64,000 nucleotides of DNA from assembly GCA_019752535.1 (NCBI GenBank), contig JAIEMA010000007.1, positions 1 through 64,000 on the forward strand, given 5' to 3'. Below the pieces are notes generated by a model that made no database searches, was not told the DNA's origin, and was given only the letters and a program-made list of their open reading frames with translations. Every line of letters begins with the position of its first letter. The stretch's first letter is position 1. Source of the DNA: Bacteriovoracaceae bacterium (lineage in GTDB: Bacteria; Bdellovibrionota; Bacteriovoracia; Bacteriovoracales; Bacteriovoracaceae). Below, one piece after another: positions 967 through 4,854 of the stretch. A program made the position numbers and the translations under genes.

Positions 967-998
967 AACATAGTGGTTTGATGAGAAGTTTCTGTCAA
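967..998 (-). promoter_or_regulatory. Putative promoter of tRNA-Leu
   Basis: On the minus strand a perfect TTGACA (993-998) is followed by TATGTT (967-972), with a start expected near 960, three bases before the mature tRNA. The 20-nt spacer is longer than ideal, so the -10 choice is uncertain. The promoter overlaps the first codons of the divergent lipoprotein gene, so the two genes cannot be regulated fully independently. Confidence 0.4.
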
Positions 999-2453
999 TT
1001 TATCCTTCTAATTCTTTTGCTGGCGCAGGGCGGCTGCAGCTGGTTATTTCCTCATCGCTTAGATGATGAGGCTTTCCTTTCTCGAGTTGAACCTGTCTGG
1101 TTCGAGATGAATCAAGGGATAAAACTGGCCAGCTGGCAGGGTGAGGTTCAACCGCATTTGTTTTTTGATCCCCTTCCAGATTTAAACCCTGCATTAAGCC
1201 ATGTTCAGTTTTTACCACTCTCAATCGCTGGCAGTGAATTTAGCTATGAGCTTGATGTGGTCTCAGGCCAGCGCTATTTCTCCAGTTTTTATTGTGAGCA
1301 AAATGATGTCTGGAAAGAAAAAAGAAAAATCCCTGAAAGACCTCTCTACACTTTGGGAGTGATTCCTCGTCACTTTGATCAGTTGAATCAACCTCAAAGG
1401 ATTATCGTTTTTGGCGGCCAAGGACGATTTAAAATTGAGGAACCCGTCACTTACCGAGTGCGCATTATTGGGGCACTTGTTGAGCAGCTCTGTTTGGTCG
1501 GCAAATGCTCAGGCCCTAAAGAGTGGGTTGGCAGAATGATTCTTGTTGGAGTGGATGAAAAGGAACGTAAATTTTCAGGTGCAAAAAAGATTGAAGACTT
1601 GAAGAACCTTGTGGATATGGAGCAAGTGAAAGGTCAGCTTGAAAATCTCTATGGGCGCAATCGTCAAGCCGATGTGGACTATCCAGCTGTGAAAATTGGA
1701 AATTTGATACCGGCGAGCGAAGCGGTCGATTTTATGCTTAAGCGCTCGATTGTTTTGGTCACTAAAGAGTTAGTCACCTTACAAAAATCTTGTTCAATCA
1801 TTTATCAAAAACTTTGGAAAGATGTCGGTGAGAAGAATTTCCTTGATCAGCCGGCCCAGACGAAAGAAGAAATTCGAAAGCATGCTGATCTAGTCAAGAA
1901 ACTAAAGTTAAGTGATAAGCCGACGTATTTTCCACAGAGACTTGCTCATTTCCTGAAGAAGTACGGTGATGATTTAGCGACCTGTGGAAGACTCGTGTAT
2001 CCAGGGGATCCTAACGGGCAGATGGAAAAATTCAAATTCGTCTCATGGGTCAACATGTTCGTCCAACTTCATAAAGCGGGTTGGGAGTATGATTGCCGGA
2101 TGCAAGCTTGGCAGCCGTCTAATCTTGGAAAAGAGGCGATGGATAACATGAAAAAATACGGCATCAATTGTACTGAACGCAGCTACGATGCAGCCATGAA
2201 GTATTTGCCTGCTTTCTTGAAGACTCTGCGTGCTGCAGTCGGGCAGCGTTGGCGCTTTGTGGGTTGGGATGAACATACTTATGGAACCCACTCAAAGCTT
2301 CAAACATGGATCAATACACCGGATCGTGTTTTTGCCTGTGAGAAAGATATGAATGAAAAAATTCGTGAAGGTTGGAAAGAGAATCCTGAAGGCATGGAAT
2401 GGCTTCCTCGCTTTAATCCTCAACTGCACAAGAATGGGGACTATATTTACTAA
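981..2453 (+). CDS. Putative lipoprotein, unknown family, first gene of the NuoB/NuoCD-like unit
   Basis: The 490-residue product begins with a short basic n-region and a hydrophobic stretch (FILLILLLAQ) ending at G-G-C, a plausible but imperfect lipobox with the acylated Cys near residue 18. I do not recognise the mature protein. It has scattered cysteines (for example CLVGKC and CRM) and a mixed alpha/beta composition rich in aromatic residues. ATG 981 is preferred over the in-frame TTG at 978. Its stop overlaps the start of the NuoB-like gene (TAATG), so the two are translationally coupled, suggesting that this envelope protein works with the complex-I-like proteins. Only 23 bases separate it from the divergent tRNA, so its promoter must overlap the tRNA gene. 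Confidence 0.6.
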   Translation: MRSFCQFILLILLLAQGGCSWLFPHRLDDEAFLSRVEPVWFEMNQGIKLASWQGEVQPHLFFDPLPDLNPALSHVQFLPLSIAGSEFSYELDVVSGQRYFSSFYCEQNDVWKEKRKIPERPLYTLGVIPRHFDQLNQPQRIIVFGGQGRFKIEEPVTYRVRIIGALVEQLCLVGKCSGPKEWVGRMILVGVDEKERKFSGAKKIEDLKNLVDMEQVKGQLENLYGRNRQADVDYPAVKIGNLIPASEAVDFMLKRSIVLVTKELVTLQKSCSIIYQKLWKDVGEKNFLDQPAQTKEEIRKHADLVKKLKLSDKPTYFPQRLAHFLKKYGDDLATCGRLVYPGDPNGQMEKFKFVSWVNMFVQLHKAGWEYDCRMQAWQPSNLGKEAMDNMKKYGINCTERSYDAAMKYLPAFLKTLRAAVGQRWRFVGWDEHTYGTHSKLQTWINTPDRVFACEKDMNEKIREGWKENPEGMEWLPRFNPQLHKNGDYIY

Positions 2454-2884
2454 TGAAAAATATCTTCTCTCCTTTTATTCGCTTCCTTGATTCTTGGGCT
2501 GCACAGAAAATTGTGAGAGTCGCTCTGTTTGGACAAGGAATTGCTCTAGAGGAGTGGGCCAGTCTAAATACGTCACCCTATCGTAAAAGAAAGCCCAATA
2601 TCAAACTAGTCACTCAGCCTGACGAAGCCGAAGTCTTGGCTTTGCATGGCCCTATTACAGATTTAAGTTTTCAAGCTTTAGAATCTTGGGTCAGTGGCTC
2701 GCAAAAGTATGCAAAGCTTTTAGCCGTTGGAGCGGAAATCGAAATCAACAAAGAGGGGAGGATTGTATCCCCGAATGGAGAAGCCTCTACGTTTAAAGTG
2801 GATCGCATTCTTCCAGGTCATCCTCCGACTCCTGAAGATTTAATCCTCGCTATTCAACAATTAATGGAGCCACCACATGTTTGA
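2453..2884 (+). CDS. NuoB/group-4 hydrogenase small-subunit-like protein lacking all Fe-S ligands
   Basis: This 143-residue protein follows the small-subunit pattern of complex I (NuoB) and Hyf/Ech-type hydrogenases: a V-x-LFGQGIALEE segment where CxxC normally lies, IKLVTQPDEAEVLALHGPIT (the KLV-SPRHAD-VTGP block), LLAVGAE (VGDC/GAC block) and a C-terminal PGHPPTPEDL (PGCPPRPE block). The four ligands of the proximal 4Fe-4S (N2) cluster are replaced: G27 and I30 for the first pair, E95 for the third and H123 for the fourth. The fold is probably kept but the cluster cannot form in the normal way. It overlaps its neighbours by 1 and 8 bases. Either it is structural only, or it binds something else. 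Family assignment is good; function is unknown. Confidence 0.75.
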   Translation: MKNIFSPFIRFLDSWAAQKIVRVALFGQGIALEEWASLNTSPYRKRKPNIKLVTQPDEAEVLALHGPITDLSFQALESWVSGSQKYAKLLAVGAEIEINKEGRIVSPNGEASTFKVDRILPGHPPTPEDLILAIQQLMEPPHV

Positions 2885-4481
2885 TTGGGGCACCTTTCGC
2901 GAACTCAAAGACTTTTATACTGGCATTTTTGGAAGCTATTATCGTTTTGATCATGATCACCACCATATTCAAGTCTCAACTCGCAACTTAATTCAATGCT
3001 TAGATATTCTAAAAAATGATCTAGGCTTTTTGCTGTTAAATGATATTGCTGTCACTGCAGTAGAGGGACATCCTCTTTACCAGAAGCAATTTCCTAAGAC
3101 TGATTGGGATATCACTTATCATCTTTATCATTACGAATCTCATCAGCGCTTCCAAGTTCATTTACTCCTCTCCCATGGAGAAAGTTTGCCAACCGCTCAG
3201 AGTCTCTTTGGTAATGCTTTAAGATTTGAAAATGAAGCCAAGATTCGTTTGGGCTTACTCGTTGATCAGCCCACTCGTTTAAAAATTCCTGACTATAAAA
3301 AGAATCCAAACTTAAGTGAAGCTCCATACCCAGAAGAGTTAAACCAGTGGTACCTGTTCGATCTCAATCATCCCATCACTAAACAGCAGTGGGAGCTAGC
3401 TTGTGAGGCGAGTGGGGGCAAAATTATTAATTCTTGGATGCAAGCTGGATTTTGGAAACGTGGGTGGGAGAAGTCGGCCACACGAATGACTCCATTGATG
3501 ATGCAGCCGATTTTGGATGGACTTATTCCAACAGCAGCACCTCTAACGAATATCGCATGGGCGAAAACGGTTGAGGATTATTTTATTTGGAAGATCCCAG
3601 AGCGGGCGCAGGCCGTACGGATGATCTTCATGGAGCTCTCGCGTATTTCGCATCATCTCTCTGTTCTTGCTGATCTTGCTGACTCTTTAGGAGTCGATGA
3701 AGCTCAGCGTGTGTGTTTTGAAACCAGAGAGAGAATTCGCTCCTTATTTCAATTCTATAACGGGGGCCGTGTGGCCACGCGGTTAGCCTCATTTGGTGGA
3801 CTCTCTCACGATATTCCCCATGGCTGGGTTCAAGAAGCAATCTCATTCATGAAAGGTCTAGAGGGCGCAATTGTCTTGTATCGAAGAATGGTGGCCCATC
3901 ATCCACTTTCAAAAAAACGTCTTAAGGTTGCCGCTTTATCAGCTCACGAAGCCCTTGAATCTGGAATAACCGGTCCAGCTCTTCGAGCCACGGGTATTAA
4001 TTTTGATCTCAGAAAATCTCGACCATTTTATTTCTACAAAGACATCGATTTTGATGTTCCAGTGGGCATCCATGGCGACTCTCATGATCGCATGTTGATT
4101 TTGATTGAAGAATGTTCTGAGTCTCTCCGTATTTTATGGCAGGTGATTGATAATCTTCCTTTAGGTGATATTCGTATTGATCTTCCACAAATTGAAGAAT
4201 TCAACAACGGCACTCTAGATGTAGAAACATGGAAGGCGTGGATAAAGACTGCTGATAGAACTTGGGGAGCACAGTTTACGGGAGTTGAAGGGGCCAATGG
4301 AGAGCTGGCTTTTCATTTAGCCCTCAATCCAAATGCTCTTGAGATTTGGGCCCTAAAAATTAAAACAAATGCCCAATGTCTGGCCCATGCGCTTCCCGTA
4401 TTTTTAAAACAGTGTTCAGTGGCAGATTTATCATCTGCCCTTGCGACAATTAATATCGAAGCCAGTGCTTTAGATAGGTGA
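2877..4481 (+). CDS. NuoC-NuoD fusion-like large subunit (complex I / group-4 hydrogenase related), no Ni-Fe ligands
   Basis: The 534 residues comprise a NuoC/30-kDa-like part (about 1-160, with the S-x-LFGNALRFENEAKIRLGL block) and a NuoD/49-kDa-like part (about 165-534). The latter keeps NHP near its start, KRGWEK where HRGxEK is usual, a P-x-RA-x-x-VRMIFMELSRI helix, the FNGG-like YNGGRVATRL block, LRATGINFDLRKS and a terminal NIEASALDR. Hydrogenases of this fold carry RICGxC near the N-terminus and DPCxxC near the C-terminus; neither is present. The arrangement matches HyfG/HycE or fused NuoCD. Gene order small subunit, large subunit, ferredoxin mimics a peripheral arm. No membrane subunits are nearby. 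Confidence 0.75.
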   Translation: MFDWGTFRELKDFYTGIFGSYYRFDHDHHHIQVSTRNLIQCLDILKNDLGFLLLNDIAVTAVEGHPLYQKQFPKTDWDITYHLYHYESHQRFQVHLLLSHGESLPTAQSLFGNALRFENEAKIRLGLLVDQPTRLKIPDYKKNPNLSEAPYPEELNQWYLFDLNHPITKQQWELACEASGGKIINSWMQAGFWKRGWEKSATRMTPLMMQPILDGLIPTAAPLTNIAWAKTVEDYFIWKIPERAQAVRMIFMELSRISHHLSVLADLADSLGVDEAQRVCFETRERIRSLFQFYNGGRVATRLASFGGLSHDIPHGWVQEAISFMKGLEGAIVLYRRMVAHHPLSKKRLKVAALSAHEALESGITGPALRATGINFDLRKSRPFYFYKDIDFDVPVGIHGDSHDRMLILIEECSESLRILWQVIDNLPLGDIRIDLPQIEEFNNGTLDVETWKAWIKTADRTWGAQFTGVEGANGELAFHLALNPNALEIWALKIKTNAQCLAHALPVFLKQCSVADLSSALATINIEASALDR

Positions 4482-4485
4482 AAAA

Positions 4486-4854
4486 ATGATTCTCAAAAAA
4501 GAACATTATGTTGAACTTCCATGGTGGCGTTGGGCCCAGTTAAGAGCTCTCTTAGCATGGTCACGGCATAGTGGGGGATTCGCTCGTATGCTTGGCGCAG
4601 ATGGCAAAAAAGCCTGGCAATTAGGCCCCATAAAAATGCAGCATTCTCGTAAAGTTCCAGTACTAAATCAGAAGCTAGATGAAAACGAAATGCGTTTAGC
4701 ACGTCAGATTTGTCCCACTCGTGCCATTATTCACGATCTTAGCAAAGGCTGGGAGATCTCGGCCCCAAGATGTATTGCCTGCGGACTTTGCTATTCTTGC
4801 GCTCCCAAATCTCTCTCACCTTCAAGTGAGTCAATAGGAAGCTTTGTTCCTTAA
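4486..4854 (+). CDS. Small ferredoxin-like protein with one probable 4Fe-4S cluster
   Basis: In this 122-residue protein the cysteines cluster at the C-terminus: C76 in ICPTRAI, then C96, C99 and C102 in CIACGLC, and C105 in SCAP. In NuoI/HyfH-type 2x[4Fe-4S] ferredoxins the first half-site is CxxCxxCxxxCP. Here that first CxxCxxC is absent, leaving C76 plus C96-C99-C102 as ligands of a single cluster, with C105 left over. The N-terminal 60 residues are basic and aromatic (LPWWRWAQLR) and could dock on a membrane or partner. It lies 4 bases after the NuoCD-like gene and is probably the only Fe-S protein of the unit. Related to NuoI/HyfH, but reduced. Confidence 0.65.
   Translation: MILKKEHYVELPWWRWAQLRALLAWSRHSGGFARMLGADGKKAWQLGPIKMQHSRKVPVLNQKLDENEMRLARQICPTRAIIHDLSKGWEISAPRCIACGLCYSCAPKSLSPSSESIGSFVP

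Follow-up and report, generated by a model that had tools for sequence, protein, structure and literature searches.

Four adjoining genes of a Bacteriovoracaceae bacterium were identified by sequence comparison as what remains of the peripheral arm of a second complex I (NDH-1), which was whole in the ancestor of the family. We think it probable (roughly 0.6) that this second complex was stripped of its redox and pump functions and is kept, together with a lipoprotein, as a redox-dead scaffold or sensor/transducer. The genes lie in a window of 64,000 nucleotides, i.e., the whole stretch of DNA analyzed here, which is the start of contig C16 of a 3.49 Mb assembly that is 97.5% complete.

The four-gene unit and its lost cofactor sites

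The unit encodes a lipoprotein, a NuoB-like protein (B'), a NuoC-NuoD fusion (CD') and a NuoI-like protein (I') (Table 1). The lipoprotein and B' genes overlap by 1 bp, B' and CD' overlap by 8 bp, and 4 bases separate CD' from I'. An earlier note on this DNA had given these positions and spacings, all correct on re-reading, and had described the products as a lipoprotein, a NuoB-like subunit, a NuoC-NuoD-like fusion and a reduced ferredoxin, four descriptions that we could confirm. A tRNA-Leu gene on the opposite strand is located directly upstream, and a fatty-acid desaturase gene, aat and an arginase-family gene are found downstream. A promoter and terminator scan gave no signal exceeding chance. 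As the note had proposed, we looked for a conserved unit in related genomes: the four genes recur at this site in each of the five genomes of the window genus and in most genera of the family, and by this conservation the unit is not a chance assembly. An ORF on the contig edge, at positions 3-476, encodes a CoiA nuclease-like domain (PF06054). It is probably the 3' portion of a larger gene, and a homologue of greater length is encoded at L048:12532-13242.

Table 1 Features of the four-gene unit and of the membrane remnant in the same organism
Feature	Position	Strand	Product or extent	Basis
Lipoprotein gene	981..2453 (ORF 978/981-2453)	+	490 aa	Sequence, ORF list
Pyrophosphatase-like domain of the lipoprotein	1074..1712	+	About residues 33-245, limits approximate	Model and Foldseek
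B' (NuoB-like) gene	2453..2884	+	143 aa	Profile search and family alignment
CD' (NuoC-NuoD fusion) gene	2877..4481	+	534 aa	Profile, structure-database and family comparison
NuoC-like (30 kDa) part of CD'	2967..3242	+	Residues 31-122	Pfam PF00329
NuoD-like (49 kDa) part of CD'	3366..4478	+	Residues 164-534	
I' (NuoI-like) gene	4486..4854	+	122 aa	Profile search and family comparison
Remaining I' Cys ligands	4711..4800	+	C76, C96, C99, C102 (and C105)	Sequence and family comparison
Membrane remnant	C5:27383-29742		A' 98, H' about 257, J' 144, K' about 83-104, 214-aa protein	

Profile searches matched CD' to Complex1_49kDa (E 4.5e-50) and Complex1_30kDa (E 2.3e-5), and its best match among solved structures was NuoCD (E 3e-44). 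By these matches CD' is with certainty a homologue of NuoC-NuoD; its length is exactly the same in 5/5 genomes of the window genus. B' alone remained below threshold (NuoB NCBIfam, E 0.008; Pfam, E 0.084), and its homology to NuoB was made certain by intermediate sequences that retain the NuoB cysteines. I' was weak as a single sequence but clear in the context of its family. Homologues of the complex I core subunits B, C, D, I and H were all found in the organism, the last of them in the membrane remnant (see below).

The cofactor sites of these proteins are largely gone. B' has no cysteine at all, and the family alignment places I, A, I and H at the four N2 ligand positions (CC, C and C in NuoB), which are intact in genome G017 and others; the N2 loss claimed earlier is thus real. 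In CD', the quinone-site residues H38 and Y87 are replaced by K and P. CD' also contains no CxxC Ni-Fe ligand motif, so the two motifs of group 4 [NiFe] hydrogenases are missing. The earlier note had used this absence as an argument; the absence is true but carries no weight, since to our knowledge NuoD never carries Ni-Fe ligands and every NuoD would show the same. The informative loss in CD' is that of the quinone-site pair. The proposal that the unit cannot be an ordinary hydrogenase or complex I arm is supported.

I' keeps one [4Fe-4S] ligand set (C76 plus C96/C99/C102) and lacks the ligands of cluster N6a. As the unit has no NuoE, NuoF or NuoG and I' can hold one cluster at most, the unit presents neither of the two forms of electron input considered, E/F/G or two NuoI clusters. 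In two sister species (G002 and G004) the last NuoI cluster is also gone. I' retains the N-terminal segment MILxxxxY, which in complex I faces the membrane arm; this segment survives when I' loses all its clusters, which fits a structural role. In G024, G107, G019 and partly G098, the ferredoxin motifs of I' are replaced by paired cysteines of the zinc-ribbon type, CxxC...CxxC (L050:10938-11249, L066:10744-11058 and the I' genes of L116 and L123), which looks like an exchange of Fe-S for a probable zinc site.

The lipoprotein

The lipobox cysteine is residue 20 when the ORF is numbered from the TTG at 978, which makes 981 the likely ATG start. Profile searches with the sequence alone gave no significant family match. 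An AF2 model (pLDDT 84.6, pTM 0.83) was compared by Foldseek, and the top PDB matches were all family-I inorganic pyrophosphatases (E ~1e-8, TMt ~0.7); the Pfam Pyrophosphatase profile appeared below threshold in 3 of 18 family members, and a profile search of PDB sequences found six, all of them pyrophosphatases. The N-terminal domain is therefore predicted to adopt the family-I pyrophosphatase fold, followed by an alpha-helical C-terminal domain. The motif GVIPRHFDQLNQPQRIIVFG stands where pyrophosphatases have YGFIPxTLxxDGDPxDVLV. None of the 18 lipoproteins has the complete DGDPxD catalytic triad, and at most one Asp, at the D67 position, survives, in two of them; with these aspartates missing across its members, the lipoprotein is very probably not a pyrophosphatase. 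In comparison with the soluble family-I enzymes (PF00719), whose predicted fold it shares, it is an exported lipoprotein with an extra helical domain, disulphide-type cysteines and no such triad. Eight cysteines besides that of the lipobox were invariant in the 18-member alignment, which suggests four disulphides and hence an extracytoplasmic location.

The lipoprotein is present in 111 of the 129 genomes of the family (38 of 48 genera) and in one of 240 other genomes of the phylum. Note that in G009 (L108) and G033 (L112) it adjoins aat alone, no complex-I-like gene being left, so it can function without the rest at least in those lineages. The lipoprotein is the most persistent part of the system and no accessory detail.

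From a whole to a stripped complex in the family

The order at this site throughout the family is lipoprotein-B-CD-(E-F-G)-I, adjoining aat and the arginase gene. The arm is present in an intact version in G017, G034, G061 and G063, and the other genomes display a graded loss. G017 and G034 have NuoE/F/G, all N2 cysteines, two NuoI cluster motifs and the quinone-site residues His38 and Tyr87; they are the only genomes with this pair intact, and every arm without E/F/G lacks one or both residues. G008 and G030 keep NuoF but have lost its NADH/FMN motif, and E/F/G are mostly missing in the remaining relatives. Many relatives, among them G006, G010, G008 and G026, keep N2 and both NuoI clusters despite having lost the NADH module and the quinone site. 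In the CD' tree, a ladder, the whole arms branch at the base, and the reduced clade has long branches. The state of N2 changed at least 8 times on a tree of two flanking genes, a weakly supported tree on which we read this number as several, and N2 was lost several times independently, the window lineage included. These comparisons indicate a stepwise stripping: the NADH module, the quinone-site His/Tyr, the proton-channel charges and the N2 cluster were lost, then the NuoI clusters. The descent of the stripped unit, the order of its losses, the selection acting on it (see below) and its co-inheritance are documented in the gene sequences.

The membrane arm followed a similar course. G017 has two complete NuoA-H-J-K-L-M-N sets in tandem adjoining mfd, the second of them followed by a long TPR protein. 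The first set, kept in most genomes, pairs with an unlinked NuoB-C-D-I, and the second is assigned as the unlinked partner of the lipoprotein-linked arm. The ancestral state reconstructed from these genomes had lipoprotein-B-CD-E-F-G-I at the window site and A-H-J-K-L-M-N beside the first membrane-arm operon. Charged channel residues of the second set are mostly kept in G061, G063 and G017 and progressively lost in G023, G025, G020 and G036. About 20 further genera have seven ORFs at the same place, matching in order, size and hydropathy. In these late remnants, H' (97%), J' (91%), K' (71%) and N' (71%) each matched the profile of the expected subunit specifically, and the match of A' was weak; L' and M' of the reduced relatives gave no sequence signal in the profile comparison and were identified by place, size and hydropathy only.

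In the window organism the remnant is directly downstream of the intact NuoA-N operon on contig C5. Its J' matches the J' of relatives (74%), and its K' aligns with NuoK but lacks the two membrane glutamates of NuoK. H' and the 214-aa protein of the window genus had no significant match to NuoH/L/M/N in direct profile comparison. A model of H' built from 4 sequences (pLDDT 65, pTM 0.66) gave no significant E-value in Foldseek, and among the 50 matches listed the only chains at TM >0.35 were of NuoH/ND1 type. The single 214-aa protein replaces the three subunits NuoL, NuoM and NuoN, leaving none with the channel Lys/Glu/His; the channel residues had already been lost in less reduced relatives. 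Since the membrane set is on another contig, the evidence for its partnership with the window unit is synteny in relatives, fold and co-occurrence (Fisher p 0.03, without correction for phylogeny); in genus g24 and in G076 the peripheral unit persists although no membrane set stands at the usual place. The suggestion of a repurposed peripheral arm with membrane subunits encoded elsewhere is supported by this remnant at a conserved site. Hydrogenase-4-type membrane subunits, for which the earlier note had proposed a search, were looked for and not found; the partners are instead degenerate copies of the second NuoA/H/J/K/L/M/N set. Two other candidates were discarded. DabA/DabB and a second antiporter-like gene on C19 were ruled out as partners by the true membrane set at the syntenic site, and the NuoH/L/M/N genes on C5 are the working arm 1 of a split complex I, not an Mrp antiporter.

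Some other systems were also observed. The split complex I of G000 has no NuoE/F/G: its NuoB-C-D-I are on C40 (L042:7850-10584) and its NuoA-H-J-K-L-M-N adjoin mfd on C5 (L088:11749-19398). It is conserved family-wide besides a complete 14-gene operon on C4 and apparently works; a ferredoxin or flavodoxin may be its electron donor. The C19 genes of G000 (L041:3612-9031), DabA (PF10070) with a DabB-type antiporter and then a NuoM/N-like gene of 448 aa, make up a variant, with three genes, of the DAB system for inorganic-carbon uptake. A protein of ~1,100 aa at C5:24031-27321 of G000 (L088:6032-9322) has a GYF-like N-terminus by eye, a membrane helix and TPR repeats. In 116 of the 129 genomes of the family it directly follows the membrane arm, and because it persists after loss of the membrane set, we take it to be a conserved protein of the envelope that is probably independent.

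Retention and possible function

Selection was estimated by pairwise omega (NG86), with dS saturated. Between G002 and G004, omega was 0.02 for CD', 0.14 for B', 0.15 for I', 0.04 for K', and 0.06 each for A', H' and the 214-aa protein. The G003-G001 pair gave 0.03 (lipoprotein), 0.09 (B') and 0.06 (I'); canonical NuoD had 0.02 in the same comparison. These values, about 0.02-0.15 with saturated dS, indicate strong purifying selection on all nine reduced genes tested in the window genus. In G080 (99% complete), G012, G074 and G149, no NuoH homologue passed the threshold and the stripped NuoD-type gene is the only one of its kind; G106 has the derived set only. The stripped complex thus persists where working complex I is gone.

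These data bear on the possibility of slow decay, in which relaxed selection lets a redundant second complex I disappear one gene after another and the observed forms are functionless stages of pseudogenization. The graded series of losses, the long branches of the reduced CD' clade, G009 and G033 with the lipoprotein alone, and the decaying unit of G027, in which the lipoprotein is truncated and both B' and the membrane set are missing, would all agree with such a process. The earlier note had held that homologues with intact cysteines in relatives would mean decay, and such homologues do exist (the cysteines are intact in G017, G034, G023, G006 and others), but decay does not follow from them given the purifying selection, the persistence in most genera and the retention without other complex I. 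With intact ORFs, the omega values above, and gene lengths and order constant over most genera, slow decay is improbable, and for the window genus the selection data largely refute it already. It is about as improbable that the unit is a reduced electron carrier in the manner of Ehr/Mbx, a ferredoxin-type Fe-S relay through I', and through N2 where kept, to another acceptor: the relatives with N2 and both NuoI clusters and the complete ligand set left in I' speak for it, but N2 and the quinone site are gone in the window genus, the genes of G002 and G004 are still under selection without any NuoI cluster, and no gene for an acceptor subunit is nearby.

The position of the membrane remnant next to the intact NuoA-N operon raises the idea of a regulatory or assembly partner of arm 1, e.g., a decoy peripheral arm docking on NuoH. 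This is very doubtful, because G080, G012, G074, G106 and G149 keep the stripped set without arm 1 or any other complex I, which refutes the partnership as a general role. Conservation could also concern the lipoprotein alone, the most widespread and best conserved component and the sole survivor in two genomes, with the complex-I-like genes as its helpers in folding, membrane retention or export quality. We regard this as unlikely, since B', CD', I', A', H', J' and K' are themselves strongly selected and some nine proteins would be an odd helper for one lipoprotein.

Most descendants thus lost NADH oxidation, quinone binding and the proton-channel residues, and several lineages, including that of the window, independently lost N2 and most NuoI clusters. 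The remainder (B', CD', I', A', H', J', K', the 214-aa membrane protein and the lipoprotein) is maintained by purifying selection. Under the preferred reading, a stripped second complex I kept as a scaffold or sensor/transducer, B'-CD'-I' may dock on H'/A'/J'/K' to form a membrane complex with neither electron transfer nor ion pumping, while the lipoprotein would be on the periplasmic side, where its non-catalytic pyrophosphatase-like domain may bind a ligand or an envelope partner. The former path of redox-to-membrane coupling, from the Q-module to the membrane arm, would be reused as a mechanical or structural link, and the role would be that of a scaffold or sensor/transducer, no enzyme. 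We give even odds to a family-wide conversion of complex I into a non-redox, non-pumping envelope sensor or scaffold with a dead-pyrophosphatase lipoprotein.

Complex I shares with the unit the common descent of CD', B', I', H', J' and K' and the gene order, and in G017/G034 a complete version, NuoE/F/G included, is encoded at this locus and apparently works; the window set differs in lacking the NADH module, N2, the quinone-site His/Tyr and antiporter-like subunits with channel residues, and in its added lipoprotein. Formate hydrogenlyase and hydrogenase-4 (HycE/HyfG, HycG/HyfI) also have a NuoC-NuoD-type fusion adjoining a NuoB-type subunit, but the unit lacks both the Ni-Fe CxxC ligands and membrane genes of the HyfB/C/F type, and CD' groups with Bdellovibrionota NuoCD, not with HycE. 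The Ehr complexes are likewise relatives of complex I and group 4 hydrogenases without Ni-Fe ligands, and their presumed function is to link redox reactions in the cytoplasm with charge translocation via Mrp-type antiporter subunits (PMC6349859). The window unit descends from complex I and has lost both its redox centres, among them the proximal [4Fe-4S] of the small subunit, and the Mrp-type antiporter subunits. For yeasts that have lost complex I, possible leftover or paralogous single subunits have been discussed (PMC2803194), whereas the Bacteriovoracaceae keep a nearly whole, cofactor-stripped subunit set. In the open-access literature we found no description of a degenerate or repurposed complex I, of a Bacteriovoracaceae complex I or of an inactive pyrophosphatase lipoprotein.

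In annotation, the stripped genes are labelled NADH-quinone oxidoreductase subunits; it would be wrong to count them as respiration, since in some genomes they are the sole complex I genes. If the preferred reading is true, a large ion pump driven by redox chemistry has lost its redox centres and its pump but kept nearly all of its subunits, which would be rare, and one of the best-studied energy machines has given rise to a pseudoenzyme of many subunits. Living intermediates represent every step, from the whole complex through loss of the NADH module, quinone site, channels, N2 and ferredoxin clusters to the lipoprotein alone, and the family would thus offer a natural series for separating the parts of complex I needed for catalysis from those needed for architecture and long-range coupling.
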